Origin: a virus
Direction: 5' to 3' (one strand)
Virus record (IMG/VR): IMGVR_UViG_3300037852_000168
Location: 1 to 38,934 of that record
DNA length: 38,934 nucleotides
Shown: positions 21,075 through 29,443 of the stretch, piece by piece
How the letters are laid out: the number at the start of each line of letters is the position of its first letter
Position numbering within the stretch: position 1 is the first letter of the stretch
Notes under the pieces: generated by a model
The model's input: the letters and a program-made list of their open reading frames with translations, nothing else
What the model was told of the DNA's origin: nothing
The model's database searches: none
Made by a program: the position numbers and the translations under genes

Positions 21075-21317
21075 CTAGTCAATAACCTTGGCCAAAATGG
21101 TAGCTTCTTCCACGACTAGATACTTTTGCTTATCATGCTCTATCTCCGCCCCATAATGCTTTTCAAGGTAGATGACGTCTCCCACTTTCACCTTTGTGAC
21201 CTCATCTCCAATCCCCATCACTTCATACTGGCTAGGCTTTCCACCCGCAATAAAAAGCTGCCCTGCCTTTATCTGTACAGCATTCACAAGCACTCTTTTC
21301 CCAAGCGTCTTTAGCAT
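21075..21317 (-). CDS. Phage-encoded GroES-like co-chaperonin (miniature, 80 aa)
   Basis: From the ATG at 21317 (GGAG 5 bp upstream) the 80-residue protein follows the Cpn10 fold: KTLGKRVLV at residues 3-11, a short mobile loop with LFI at 21-23 (the GroEL-binding hydrophobic tripeptide, IVL or IML in GroES), VKVGDVIYLEKHYGAEI at about 43-59, and a C-terminal YLVVEEATILAKV. It is about 17 residues shorter than bacterial GroES (about 97), mainly in the roof hairpin. It should work with the host GroEL, probably to fold the capsid or another large phage protein, as T4 gp31 does. It is the first gene after the strongest minus promoter. An ATG 60 bases upstream in frame is less likely. Confidence 0.85.
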   Translation of the reverse strand: MLKTLGKRVLVNAVQIKAGQLFIAGGKPSQYEVMGIGDEVTKVKVGDVIYLEKHYGAEIEHDKQKYLVVEEATILAKVID

Positions 21318-21339
21318 AAATACTCCATTGTTTGTTCTC

Positions 21340-21368
21340 ATTATAGCAAGGACGCGATTTTCAGTCAA
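21340..21368 (-). promoter_or_regulatory. Strong sigma70-type promoter for the packaging operon (TTGACT-N17-TATAAT)
   Basis: On the minus strand TTGACT (21368-21363), an exact 17-bp spacer and a consensus TATAAT (21345-21340) precede the GroES gene by about 23 bp. It is the strongest minus-strand promoter seen and should drive GroES, small genes, TerL and portal. No obvious operator palindrome overlaps it. Confidence 0.85.
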
Positions 21369-21403
21369 TCGTATCACATGCTATATACATAAATGAAGAA
21401 GTG

Positions 21404-24438: not shown

Positions 24439-24942
24439 CTAGAATTTGCTACATCTTCGGTCAGGTCCATCCCATCGCAAACATACTCCGGAAGATACAC
24501 GACTAACAAACGGGTCTCCAAACCGTTCTCGAAGCATTTGAGAATTTAAATTTGTCGTAATTATCGTTCCACATGGCACCTTTGACTCGAATCTTCTTTC
24601 AGAAAGAAAATAAAGAAAATCCATGAAGGAATCGGATGGAGTTCGCACTCCAAGGTCATCTAGGACAAGAAGAGGAGCTTCTACCAATCTTTGCAACAAA
24701 TAACTTGTGTCCTGATATTCCTTGAACACCCTTTGCCACTCCATATTGAGTTCTACCTGATTCCACATGGCTTGACTGCGGTGTGGATGCCAAAAATGGT
24801 CATAAATGGCGCGCGCTGTAAAGCTTTTACCTCCTCCATTAGACCCAGCAATGAGGAAAAACCCGTAAGGCTTAATGACAAAGTCATTTACGGCTTGCAT
24901 AAACTCGGGTGACTTGTCATTTATTTCGTGTAATTTTGGCAT
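24439..24942 (-). CDS. DnaC-like helicase-loader ATPase, 167 aa
   Basis: Walker A GSNGGGKS is at residues 33-40 and Walker B LLVLDDLG at 91-98. A TIITTN sensor follows at about 126-131, with a candidate arginine finger R148 (SRVSSG). The protein is the size of the AAA+ core of DnaC, without the N-terminal helicase-binding domain of the 245-residue host protein. It should load the host replicative helicase at the origin with the initiator. Its ATG overlaps the initiator's stop (TAATG), so the two are translationally coupled. Confidence 0.85.
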   Translation of the reverse strand: MPKLHEINDKSPEFMQAVNDFVIKPYGFFLIAGSNGGGKSFTARAIYDHFWHPHRSQAMWNQVELNMEWQRVFKEYQDTSYLLQRLVEAPLLVLDDLGVRTPSDSFMDFLYFLSERRFESKVPCGTIITTNLNSQMLRERFGDPFVSRVSSGVCLRWDGPDRRCSKF

Positions 24943-25832
24943 TAAAACTTACCCTCACTTGCGCTAGAGATCGGTTTTCCATCAATTCCTTTTGTTCTCC
25001 TGTCTTGTGGGGCACTGCCGAATTTTTTGTTTTCGAGTGATTTATCCTTGCTCAAATCTTCTCTCGTGCGTTTTTCTACCCATCCGCCTTTCTTCATCAC
25101 AGCATAGTCACAACCATATAAAGCGATTTTTTCTTCCTTAGATCCATGTTTAGATCCCTTGTAAGCATCTAAAACATCTATCATGTGTTCTACGAACTGT
25201 TCTCCATGTTTCGACAAAAGCGATGAGTGCTGTTCTTTGGTGAGAGAAACGAATTCCCCGAAAAAGCATTTGATTTCTGAAATCGAAAAAAAAGGGGTTG
25301 GGGATATTTCTTCTTTCTTTCTTTTCTTTACCTTCTTTCTTTCTTGTTCGTGGCGATTCGGTGGCGATCCGGTGGCGATTCGGTGGCGATCTGGGTGGTT
25401 ATTTGGGTCGTCAACATGATTGTTTTTCAAATCAATATTAATATCATAAACAGAGCTGCTACATAGCTGTACGAGTGTTCCTATTGTGGTTAATCCGGTC
25501 GTCATTTCGGTGGTTGTGTCGGTGGTCAAAGTCTGGCGATGCTCGTGAGATGGTGTGGCGCTCAAGTTTTTTCTTGTACGGCAAGTTTCAATGATTTCGA
25601 TATGTTTTCTGTTTTTAAGAATGTCTTTTGCTGTTCGATATTCTGAGCGAGTCAATCCATAAGATTTGTGATCGCCCAAATGACATTGACCCATAGAAAG
25701 TCCATCTGCTCCATTCATGAACCTACGCGCTCTCTCTGCGATAATGGTAAGCAAGATGAATGCGTTAGGATGATTCCTAACAAGGAACATAGCCTCAGAC
25801 GAGGGGATGAATTTGATGAATCTTTCACACAT
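24942..25832 (-). CDS. Replication initiator-like protein (lambda O / DnaD-type layout)
   Basis: The ATG at 25832 has GGGAG 7 bp upstream; an ATG 24 bases earlier is less likely. The 296-residue protein has an N-terminal winged-helix-like DNA-binding part (about 10-100, with GLTRSEYRTAKDILKNRKHIEII), a Thr/Asn/His-rich linker (about 105-170) encoded by the iteron DNA, a KKxKKRKKEE patch, and a helical domain (about 180-240). An initiator plus a DnaC-like loader in one operon, with iterons inside the gene, mirrors lambda O-P. Initiator identity rests on layout and weak motif similarity. Confidence 0.7.
   Translation of the reverse strand: MCERFIKFIPSSEAMFLVRNHPNAFILLTIIAERARRFMNGADGLSMGQCHLGDHKSYGLTRSEYRTAKDILKNRKHIEIIETCRTRKNLSATPSHEHRQTLTTDTTTEMTTGLTTIGTLVQLCSSSVYDINIDLKNNHVDDPNNHPDRHRIATGSPPNRHEQERKKVKKRKKEEISPTPFFSISEIKCFFGEFVSLTKEQHSSLLSKHGEQFVEHMIDVLDAYKGSKHGSKEEKIALYGCDYAVMKKGGWVEKRTREDLSKDKSLENKKFGSAPQDRRTKGIDGKPISSASEGKF
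25350..25456. repeat. Iterons and AT-rich segment: putative replication origin
   Basis: Four direct copies of GTGGCGATYCG with an exact 11-bp period run from 25350 to 25393 (TGGCGAT at 25351, 25362, 25373 and 25384). An AT-rich segment follows (25421-25450) with the palindrome ATATTAATAT. Degenerate relatives (CGGTGGTTGTGT, CGGTGGTCAAAG, CTGGCGATG) lie at about 25508-25545. The array is inside the initiator gene, as in lambda. It is a good candidate for the initiator-binding and unwinding site. Confidence 0.75.
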
Positions 25833-25855
25833 GATGAATCTCCCTGTAAAAAGCA

Positions 25856-25962
25856 TTGCGCGTTTTTCCCAGGGATGCTATAACGAAAGGTACACCAGTC
25901 TTTCGGATTGCGTCCCTGCAATCACAATCGCCTCGATTGAACGTCGAGGCGATTTCTTTTTT
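25856..25962 (+). ncRNA. Candidate plus-strand small RNA opposite the replication operon (OOP-like)
   Basis: TTGCGC (25856-25861), 17 bp, and an extended -10 TGC-TATAAC (25879-25884) form a plus-strand promoter. A strong intrinsic terminator follows: AATCGCCTCGA (25926-25936), 7-base loop, TCGAGGCGATT (25944-25954), then TTTCTTTTTT. The RNA would be about 70 bases (about 25891-25962), with no plus-strand gene in it. It lies between the initiator and its upstream gene on the other strand, like lambda OOP RNA. It includes the shared 17-bp element at 25863-25879. Confidence 0.55.
25863..25879. repeat. 17-bp repeated element, copy A (TTTTTCCCAGGGATGCT)
   Basis: This copy differs at one base from the copy at 26293-26309. 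On the minus strand it lies 31 bp upstream of the initiator start; on the plus strand it forms the spacer of the candidate small-RNA promoter. An operator or 5'-UTR control site for the replication genes is equally possible. Confidence 0.75.
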
Positions 25963-25993
25963 AGCACAAAATCTCTTACATTCGCAAGCGCAT

Positions 25994-26269
25994 TCAATCA
26001 TTCAAATGCGCCCCTGCAATGTTTATGCGAAACTTTTCGTCGTTTTCAACGAAGCTTACAACGTTCAGGGACATCAACGGTGTAAGTAGATTCCTAAACA
26101 TGGTCGGGGATAACAGATAGTCTTTGCGAACGTCTTCTTTTTTTGCTTCAACGCGAAGCCTTTCATCTCGTTTTTTCCATAACTGAGCATAAAGAAGGGC
26201 AGATTTGGGACAGACCTTTAGCACTCTTATAAAATTGTTTTTGGGAGGGAATTCCTCGTAATCCTGCAT
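25994..26269 (-). CDS. Small DNA-binding-like protein upstream of the initiator, 91 aa
   Basis: AGAGGAAAT precedes the ATG. The 91-residue protein looks like a single winged-helix domain: NFIRVLKVCPKSALLYAQLWKK, a basic loop (KKEDVRKDYLLSPTMFRNLL) and a strand pair ending NVVSFVENDEKFRINI. A role as a regulator or initiation accessory is inferred from the shape and the position just before the initiator. Confidence 0.6.
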   Translation of the reverse strand: MQDYEEFPPKNNFIRVLKVCPKSALLYAQLWKKRDERLRVEAKKEDVRKDYLLSPTMFRNLLTPLMSLNVVSFVENDEKFRINIAGAHLND

Positions 26270-26286: not shown

Positions 26287-26416
26287 TTGTGATTTTTCCC
26301 AGGAATGCTTATGGTTGTTTGCATAGCGCTTCTTTCCTAGGAGTTAGGGGCGTTTTTGGTAGTGTCCTATGTGTTCTAGTGAAGCACCTGGTTGGCGTTG
26401 GGTGCTTCACCTTTTT
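26287..26416 (+). ncRNA. Second candidate plus-strand small RNA with the same promoter module
   Basis: TTGTGA (26287-26292), the shared 17-bp element as spacer, and a weak TATGGT (26310-26315) form a promoter-like unit. A strong plus-strand terminator follows: GTGAAGCACC (26379-26388), a 12-base loop, GGTGCTTCAC (26401-26410), then CTTTTTAATATTTT. The predicted RNA is about 95 bases. No plus-strand gene lies between. The promoter's -10 is poor, so transcription is uncertain, but the terminator is excellent. Confidence 0.45.
26293..26309. repeat. 17-bp repeated element, copy B (TTTTTCCCAGGAATGCT)
   Basis: This copy differs at one base from 25863-25879. On the minus strand it lies 24 bp upstream of the start of the 91-residue gene at 26269. 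The two copies thus sit at nearly the same distance before two consecutive minus-strand genes. Confidence 0.75.
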
Positions 26417-26515
26417 AATATTTTATAATTTTATTTGCAATTGACTGACCGTATTCACTACTCTCCAGACTAAGAGTGTCACAGAGGGAGTTCAGTGAGT
26501 AAGGTTTTTTCTTTT

Positions 26516-26779
26516 TCATGTCTCTTGCGCGACTTTTTTTCTCTTTTCTTTGGCTACGACCTCACTTGCTTCCTTCTTCTTTGCCTTGATAACGTCTATC
26601 CAGTCGTAGAGCGTAATGTCTCCGTTTGTGTACTTTTCTATTTCGTAAGCAATCTTAAGGCTTGGCACGAGATCTTTTCTAAGTATGTCGTGCAACGTCG
26701 ATGTGCTAATGCCCAGCTTCTCAGCTACACCCCTTTGCTTTTTGTGATTGTAGTATATCCAGGAAGCGAATTTGTTCAT
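26516..26779 (-). CDS. Cro/CI-type helix-turn-helix repressor, 87 aa
   Basis: The ATG at 26779 has AAGGG 8 bp upstream; an upstream frame extension (to 26902) is rejected as non-coding leader. Residues 14-38 form the HTH (QRGVAEKLGISTSTLHDILRK), followed by VPSLKIAYEIEKYTNGDITLYDW, which is a typical Cro-family dimerisation layout, and a Lys/Glu-rich tail. It heads the minus-strand replication operon and faces the early plus promoter 26906-26934. It is probably the switch repressor. A palindrome at 26806-26821 lies 27 bp upstream of its start and suggests autoregulation. Confidence 0.8.
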   Translation of the reverse strand: MNKFASWIYYNHKKQRGVAEKLGISTSTLHDILRKDLVPSLKIAYEIEKYTNGDITLYDWIDVIKAKKKEASEVVAKEKRKKVAQET

Positions 26780-27881: not shown

Positions 27882-28577
27882 ATGTCACAATCAGAATTCA
27901 TTCACGAATTAGCCTCGGCCTTATCAAAAGCTCAAGGCGAAATGCAAGCCGCTATCAAGGATAAAGTAAACCCGTTTTACACTAGCTCATATGCTGATTT
28001 GGGTAGTGTATGGGATGCTGCCCGACCCGTTCTAGGTAAGAACGGGCTTTGCATCATGCAGACAACCGAAATGGTAGATAAGCAGATTATCATGGTGACA
28101 ACGCTGGCCCATACGTCGGGCCAATGGGTGAAATCATATCTGCCGCTTCTCCTAAAAAAAGACGATAGCCAAGGAATAGGCGCAGCAATGACTTACCTAA
28201 GAAGATATTCGCTTTCTGCCCTAGTTGGCGTAGTGTGCGAAGATGATGATGATGGAGAAACGGCAGTGGGGAGAGGTAAAGCACAAAAGGAAGAGAAGGA
28301 AGCAAAACAAAAGGAAGAGAAGGAAGCAAAACAAAAGCAGTCGGTAGCGCCATCCCCTCAAGTTGCGCCAGTAGAAAAGATAGATCAAAACCAAATGGAC
28401 ACCTTGAATGCGTTGGTTGGACATCTAGAAGAACCCAAGCCTTTTTTCGACTGGATTAAAAAGTCTTTCAATGCCGTATCTTTGCAAGACATTCCAAAGG
28501 ATAGTTTTGGTAAGTGTGTTACATTACTTCATGCCAAGATCAAGTTCTTAGCAAGTGAAGAAAGAGGGGTAGCATAA
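27882..28577 (+). CDS. erf: ERF-family single-strand annealing protein
   Basis: The 231-residue protein shows the ERF signature: NPFYTSSYADLGSVWDA at residues 30-46 and QGIGAAMTYLRRYSLSALVGV at about 97-117, followed by an acidic EDDDDG. A Lys/Glu linker (about residues 130-150) is encoded by tandem 24-bp DNA repeats. It anneals complementary DNA in phage recombination, as does P22 Erf. It partners with the exonuclease encoded by the next gene, whose ATG overlaps its stop (TAATG). Confidence 0.9.
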   Translation: MSQSEFIHELASALSKAQGEMQAAIKDKVNPFYTSSYADLGSVWDAARPVLGKNGLCIMQTTEMVDKQIIMVTTLAHTSGQWVKSYLPLLLKKDDSQGIGAAMTYLRRYSLSALVGVVCEDDDDGETAVGRGKAQKEEKEAKQKEEKEAKQKQSVAPSPQVAPVEKIDQNQMDTLNALVGHLEEPKPFFDWIKKSFNAVSLQDIPKDSFGKCVTLLHAKIKFLASEERGVA

Positions 28578-29443
28578 TGAAAATTATTAACGTAGAACAA
28601 GGCAGCCCAGAGTGGCTGTCTTGGAGAAAGACGGTTATTACAGCTACTGATTGCCCTGCTATTCTAGGCTCTTCTCCATGGTCTACGGCGTATAAGTGCT
28701 GGCAAAGGAAGCTCGATTTGATAGAAGAGCAGCCGACCAATTACGCCATGGAAAGAGGAAAGGGTCTTGAGCCTTTCATTAGAGAAAGGTTTATAGAGAA
28801 GTTCGGGATTAATATGACCCCTGCCGTCGTAGAAAGCTCAGAATATGACTTCTTGGGCGCGTCCCTGGATGGGATATCTGATTGCGGCAAATACATTCTA
28901 GAGATAAAAACGGGAGGGCTTAAACTTTACGGCATGGGGCGGCAGGGGATGATACCGCAATATTATCTAGATCAAATACAGCATCAATTGCTAGTTACGG
29001 GAGCTGATAAGGCATTTTATCATTTGGGGGGTGAAGATGAAGAGAAGGATATTGTGATAGAAGTCTTGCCTGACCCAGCATTTAAGGCGAAATTCCTTCC
29101 AGTGGCGAAAGCATTCTTGAAGTGCATGGCATTTAGTGAGCCGCCGGAGTTGCAGGATTCGGATTATGTAGATATGTCAAAAGAGCCAGCATGGAACGAG
29201 GCGGCTAAGGAGTATCGCCAACTGAGCATACAAATTAAGATGCTGGAAGAGATAAAGGAACAGTACCGCAAAGAGCTTTTAAAGCGCTGTGCTGATCAAA
29301 ACTGTTCAGGTGGCGGTGTAAAGATAATGAAGATGGTTAGGCGTGGACGTATAGTCTATGATGAGATTCCAGAGCTCAAGGATGTTGACTTGGATAAATA
29401 CAGAGAGGAAGCTAGTTCCAGTTGGAAAATACTTACCACATGA
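28577..29443 (+). CDS. YqaJ/lambda-type recombination exonuclease
   Basis: The 288-residue protein has the YqaJ/RecB-like nuclease motifs: SPEWLSWRKTVITATD at residues 10-25, E65 (GLEPF), D98 (GASLDG), and E109/K111 (LEIKTG). The C-terminal third is helical. It digests DNA ends to give 3' single strands for the ERF protein, making a two-component recombination system like lambda Exo/Beta. It is the last gene of the early operon, followed by a hairpin. Confidence 0.88.
   Translation: MKIINVEQGSPEWLSWRKTVITATDCPAILGSSPWSTAYKCWQRKLDLIEEQPTNYAMERGKGLEPFIRERFIEKFGINMTPAVVESSEYDFLGASLDGISDCGKYILEIKTGGLKLYGMGRQGMIPQYYLDQIQHQLLVTGADKAFYHLGGEDEEKDIVIEVLPDPAFKAKFLPVAKAFLKCMAFSEPPELQDSDYVDMSKEPAWNEAAKEYRQLSIQIKMLEEIKEQYRKELLKRCADQNCSGGGVKIMKMVRRGRIVYDEIPELKDVDLDKYREEASSSWKILTT

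Follow-up and report, generated by a model that had tools for sequence, protein, structure and literature searches.

Organization of the replication locus

The viral DNA analyzed here (hereafter the window) is a stretch of 38,934 nucleotides that carries an operon of replication genes on its minus strand. The initiator gene (24942 to 25832; 296 aa, matching the replisome organizer family phrog_13246 with an E value of 6e-8) likely begins with a start codon at 25832 behind the Shine-Dalgarno (SD) sequence CAGGGAG and is directly followed by the gene of a DnaC-like loader (24439 to 24942, minus strand). Upstream of the initiator lies a 91-aa gene, p91 (25994 to 26269, minus strand), that encodes a conserved winged-helix protein with 26 residues invariant among 14 homologues and a confidently modelled winged-helix fold (pLDDT 88). 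The initiator gene itself contains 11-bp tandem repeats (25350 to 25391, minus strand) that resemble iterons and likely mark the origin; repeats with a period of ~11 bp occupy the same position in the initiator gene of most relatives and differ in sequence. The lambda O gene likewise holds its origin internally, a feature that the initiator gene described here would share. Elsewhere in the window, we noted a phage-encoded GroES-like co-chaperonin (Cpn10, E value 3e-8; 21075 to 21377, minus strand) and, divergent from the replication operon, a recombination pair in which a YqaJ/RecE-like exonuclease comes after an Erf-type annealing protein (27882 to 29443, plus strand).

No tyrosine or serine recombinase of the integrase and resolvase families was found in any of the 15 records examined (15/15, each of ~38 to 40 kb), and ParA is encoded in 5 of them beside a small ribbon-helix-helix-like protein without a Pfam match; the window itself is without ParA. 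Where present, this pair forms an insertion adjoining the portal gene (e.g., at 1465 to 2445 in L070 and 1465 to 2427 in L071). Because no recombinase was found in 15 records and ParA was found in 5, an extrachromosomal prophage lifestyle appears plausible for phages of this group. The initiator has no match among 72,556 plasmids. Clues to the host come from 2 MAG contigs only, which are labelled Deltaproteobacteria and Verrucomicrobia and are possibly misbinned.

Relatives were collected by terminase and Erf searches of viral contigs, which succeeded where a protein scan with the initiator alone retrieved none. Judging by the phage collection, none of the relatives has been cultured: a nucleotide search of 50,697 phage records gave no match to the region, and the terminase is less than 60% identical in all 443 matching records. 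The gene order regulator, p91, initiator is kept entirely or for the most part in 26 relatives, which together with the window make up the comparison set of 27 phages.

A small RNA predicted opposite the initiator leader

An earlier note on this DNA had placed a promoter and a terminator on the plus strand between the initiator and its upstream gene, both on the minus strand, at a site without any plus-strand gene. The coordinates of the region agree with this description, no plus-strand gene is supported there, and the promoter TTGCGC-N17-TGC-TATAAC (25856 to 25884, plus strand) is present exactly as given, with the -35 element TTGCGC at 25856 to 25861, a 17-nt spacer, the TGC of an extended -10, and TATAAC at 25879 to 25884. 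The predicted transcript, which we call RNA1, comprises ~70 nt from 25891 (predicted 5' end, accurate to 3 nt in either direction) to the T tract at 25962 on the plus strand. From its fold, RNA1 contains hairpin H2 (25906 to 25923; GATTGC-GTCCCT-GCAATC), whose loop is designated A and the mRNA complement of that loop A', and hairpin H3, which together with the T tract forms the predicted intrinsic terminator (25926 to 25962); the complementary sequence would fold into the hairpin with which the initiator mRNA begins. The note's terminator stem of 10 to 11 bp with a T tract exists but is somewhat longer, comprising 12 bp (25926 to 25954) that are followed by TCTTTTTT up to 25962 (a T6 tract).

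The promoter is not listed by a sigma-70 scan demanding 9 of 12 consensus bases, because its -35 element agrees with the consensus at only 3 of 6 positions. The pattern TTGC-N15/17-TGnTATAA occurs once in the window compared to 0.11 expected occurrences, with at least one occurrence in 10 of 100 shuffles, and terminator-like sites are as frequent in the scan (18) as in shuffles (18.2), with the RNA1 stem among the 2 longest. Within one genome, the combination of promoter and terminator is barely beyond chance, modestly unusual, and weak evidence.

The comparison of 27 phages argues convincingly that both elements are clearly non-random, because they are conserved throughout. At the promoter, the TTG of the -35 element is present in 27/27 phages, the T and G of the extended -10 in 26/27 and 24/27, the following TA in 27/27, and the final T of the -10 in 26/27, and the sequence between the invariant TTG and TA varies in step with 2 other sites. 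The terminator stem and T tract contain invariant bases, and 6 of the 9 stem pairs show compensatory changes across the 27 sequences. As a prediction from promoter, hairpins, and terminator conserved in 27 phages, the small RNA proposed to lie opposite the replication genes is well supported.

Searches against Rfam, with the gathering as well as permissive thresholds, turned up no credible match. A covariance model built from the 27 sequences detects the element in L069, which was outside the training set (E value 7e-13), as well as in L066 (0.0014) and L073 (0.0065). L063, L066, and L073 retain the element at their initiator leader, although similarity of their initiators to the one in the window is undetectable and searches of these 3 genomes did not find p91; the comparison hence indicates that the RNA is selected for itself and is not a by-product of p91. 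A Vibrio phage with a distant homologue of the initiator has only ~54 bp upstream of it and no such element. In L074 (upstream of 3455) and L078 (upstream of 3154), phages whose initiators are distantly homologous, the strand facing the initiator leader likewise has a promoter, inverted repeats, and a terminator, but the complementary sites are arranged differently.

The initiator mRNA leader and its covarying sites

The predicted start of the initiator mRNA falls close to the end of RNA1, because the putative mRNA promoter P_init (25958 to 25987, minus strand; TTGCGA-N18 ending in TGC-TAAAAA, predicted mRNA start ~25957) lies just beyond the RNA1 terminator, between it and the p91 stop. The family motifs TTG and TGnTA of P_init (minus strand) are found at the aligned columns in 25 to 27 of the 27 phages (TGnTA in 26/27); the window's own P_init -10 is weak and sits off the aligned columns, and its RNA1 -35 is weak as well. 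From 5' to 3', the leader is composed of H3' (the terminator complement), H2' with loop A', hairpin H1', the anti-SD segment B', and the SD site C'. H1' (25884 to 25905, minus strand; CGAAAG..CTTTCG) has a 3' arm that overlaps the complement of the RNA1 -10, and RNA1 would for this reason be without that arm, so that H1' seems to be chiefly an mRNA structure. B' (25866 to 25878, minus strand; GCATCCCTGGGAA) lies opposite the spacer of the RNA1 promoter, to which it is complementary, and covaries with C' (25840 to 25846, minus strand), the initiator SD CAGGGAG. On the minus strand, a scan for terminator-like sites found none from 25832 to 25957.

RNAalifold on a plain MAFFT alignment recovered the terminator stem only, because H1 and H2 shift register, and permutation tests were used instead in which each phage's own partner sites were compared to permuted partners over 27 phages, with relatedness not removed. 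In these tests the arms of H1' covary (z -10.5, 0 of 20,000 permutations as good), as do those of H2 (z -6.8). The pairing of A' with B' has an energy of -12.2 kcal/mol with own and -8.6 kcal/mol with permuted partners (z -7.5, 0/20000), and that of B' with C' -12.4 compared to -9.2 kcal/mol (z -6.6, 0/20000). In the window, the energy is -16.0 for A' (ATTGCAGGGACGCA) with B' and -12.9 for B' with C'. Counting of pairs gives the same picture, with 6.07 of 7 positions paired in A'B' compared to 5.51 after permutation (0/20000), and 24 cells of B'C' changed on both sides compared to 11.6 in shuffles (0/500), slid registers giving lower values. The control pairings give z -2.1 (A with B') and z +0.9 (A' with C'), and direct pairing of the RNA1 loop with the SD reaches z -1.7, with 848 of 20,000 permutations as good. 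Independent exchanges, for example in L036, L010, L021, L022, L058, and L066, count against ancestry alone as the cause. We interpret this covariation as the signature of 2 mutually exclusive pairings of B', either with A' or with C'.

Accessibility modelling, in which A' and B' were blocked together given that blocking B' alone is uninformative in many phages, predicts a median opening of C' over the phages of 0.37 with A' and B' engaged, 0.22 in the free leader, and 0.17 in the antisense-bound leader; for the window, the predicted values are 0.33, 0.26, and 0.19, respectively. The direction of this modelled shift fits a switch and its size is modest, with a nearest-neighbour model that does not score pseudoknots.

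A second copy of the element upstream of p91

The earlier note had named a single RNA and overlooked the copy that precedes p91. The window contains exactly 2 occurrences of the motif TTTTTCCCAGGNATGCT, one at 25863 and the other, upstream of p91, at 26293; the latter belongs to a promoter (26287 to 26315, plus strand; TTGTGA-N17-TATGGT) that shares its motif with 25863 to 25879 and is conserved in relatives. The predicted antisense transcript, RNA2 (26322 to 26416, plus strand; terminator stem 26379 to 26410), lies opposite the p91 leader. Beside it, where the p91-initiator operon begins, an AT-rich stretch (26412 to 26440, minus strand) is the putative promoter/operator region, with the conserved AT palindrome ATAATATTTGATAAATATTAT in relatives. 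An HTH regulator gene (26516 to 26779) adjoins this palindrome, which is perhaps the operator of that regulator.

In the relatives, RNA2 is longer and repeats the three-site arrangement seen at the initiator, and where an extra gene is inserted before p91, the element precedes that first gene. Over 24 phages, A'B' and B'C' of the RNA2 system covary (z -5.4 and -3.9) with direct pairing at z -0.4. Within phages, each loop prefers its own anti-SD partner (-12.0 for A'1B'1 and -14.9 for A'2B'2) over the crosswise combinations (-8.4 and -6.7), suggesting that the RNA1 and RNA2 systems are orthogonal.

The terminator loop of RNA2, in the window as in relatives, carries a strictly conserved UUGGCG (AAUUGGCGUU), usually with a second GGCGUUUUUGAU upstream; the title of a work in the reference list of PMC10724649 names UUGGCG as the loop motif in the target RNA of plasmid ColIb-P9. 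RNA2 of several relatives (e.g., L002, L012, L014, and L050) also contains a conserved CCTCCTG, which yields AGGAGG in the leader of the p91 mRNA. This is a perfect SD that no start codon consistently accompanies, and it is perhaps a standby site or belongs to a leader peptide.

A two-state switch as the most likely reading

The comparison of genomes brings out conserved promoters, a terminator, hairpins, and both pairings of B'. We think it likely, with a probability of roughly 70%, that RNA1, encoded in cis, acts as an antisense RNA and restrains initiator synthesis via a two-state switch in the mRNA leader. In the off state, B' would pair with C' and close the SD; in the on state, loop A' would capture B' in a pseudoknot across H1' and leave the SD free for initiator synthesis. 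The complementarity between RNA1 and the leader begins at the 5' end of the leader and reaches into the H1 loop. Through its H2 loop, RNA1 would contact A', so that A' could no longer capture B' and B' would close the SD. Because each copy of the genome would transcribe RNA1 from the RNA's own promoter, the brake would grow with copy number, as in plasmids, and convergent transcription from promoters whose starts lie 66 bp apart may add interference. The purpose would presumably be copy control of an extrachromosomal prophage. A wider proposal, that an undescribed family of uncultured phages carries 2 tandem, mutually orthogonal antisense/pseudoknot switches (at the initiator and the first operon gene) that evolved independently of plasmid RNAI and serve such copy control, is more tentative and, in our estimate, falls a little short of even odds.

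The earlier note had likened this RNA to OOP of phage lambda, and the likeness holds for a small terminated RNA encoded on the opposite strand between the initiator and an upstream gene, here a small regulator-like one. If it extended to function, RNA1 would hit the 3' end of the p91 mRNA for RNase III cleavage, with its promoter also affecting the origin, and a read-through transcript of p91 and initiator would indeed be complementary to it. Yet OOP is antisense to the cII 3' end with an overlap of 52 bases (PMC5869508), whereas RNA1 ends at 25962, ~32 nt short of the p91 stop codon (25994 to 25996), and is antisense over its full length to the 5' leader of the initiator itself. With no overlap with the upstream gene and the initiator leader as probable target, we rejected RNA1 as an OOP homologue. 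Given also that the element persists in 3 genomes where p91 was not found and that the covariation sits in the initiator leader, we regard an attack of the OOP type as improbable; the covariation suggests instead that initiator translation is what is controlled, in the manner of plasmids regulated by antisense RNA.

The C-rich loop of RNA1 could also bind the initiator SD directly, leaving the A'B' match a by-product, and the loop GTCCCT is complementary to CAGGGA of the SD in the window, with a mean loop/SD duplex energy of -11.3 kcal/mol across phages. However, loop and SD hardly covary at either RNA while loop and anti-SD do, and in L036 and L066 the RNA1 loop tracks B' even where the match to the SD is gone, so that we give this explanation little credence. 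Very improbable, in our view, is a self-contained mRNA leader (a thermosensor, an attenuator, or a protein-binding site) with the plus-strand promoter and terminator as by-products. Such a leader would suit the fact that H1' and B'C' function solely in the sense RNA and that RNA1 is so far predicted from sequence; it accounts poorly for a plus-strand -35, extended -10, and T tract that hold fixed spacing while the spacer sequence changes, for the repetition of the layout at p91, and for a leader in which the scan found no minus-strand terminator.

If the antisense switch is real, translational antisense/pseudoknot control of an initiator, known from low-copy plasmids, would exist also in phages, with 2 copies in a single operon, and would have given rise to many specificities among the relatives. 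These phages would gain a replication-based incompatibility, i.e., an immunity by copy control that is independent of a repressor, and would offer a set of natural orthogonal RNA switches. The corresponding prediction is that relatives sharing an A loop exclude each other and that relatives with different loops coexist.

Comparison with known systems

The open-licence literature yielded no paper describing antisense/pseudoknot control of an initiator in a phage, and a 2025 review of phage small RNAs lists, in its accessible part, OOP, sar, PreS, VpdS, and others without naming an antisense RNA of an initiator leader (PMC12197685). Lambda OOP is similarly a small terminated RNA, transcribed away from the initiator and opposite the replication operon, but it overlaps and attacks cII, whereas RNA1 would target the initiator leader without overlapping the upstream gene. 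Cluster A mycobacteriophages are integrase-less, carry par genes, and use an RNA in extrachromosomal replication (PMC7157519); there, however, the noncoding RNA itself is required for replication in phages without repA, whereas an initiator protein is present here and the RNA is the proposed brake.

Among plasmids, CopA/CopT of R1 and the countertranscripts of pT181 and pIP501 share with the phage element an antisense RNA that is transcribed convergently and complementary to the rep leader throughout, as well as the logic of copy-number control, and differ in that no tap-like peptide was recognized in the phage leaders. Attenuation as in pT181 and pIP501 needs an intrinsic terminator on the sense strand, and none was found in the phage leader (25832 to 25957). 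Functionally closest among known systems, by analogy, appears to be Inc RNA (RNAI) and repZ of ColIb-P9 and the I-complex, where repZ is translated only if a pseudoknot forms ahead of the ribosome site, which Inc RNA prevents (PMC8383071; PMC10724649). Sequence homology to the RNA or initiator of the I-complex was not found (no Rfam match, and no counterpart of the initiator in the plasmid set). Common to both are a short antisense RNA (predicted here) arising within the initiator leader, a hairpin loop complementary to a leader loop, the ability of this leader loop to pair with a segment next to the SD (suggested here by A'B' covariation), and an alternative structure that closes the SD (suggested here by B'C' covariation and folds). 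ColIb-P9 has a translated leader peptide, repY, that opens the structure; on reading the phage leaders, no conserved frame of this kind was recognized. Unlike ColIb-P9, the phage system places H1' between the loop and the anti-SD, is doubled within its operon, and resides in phages.
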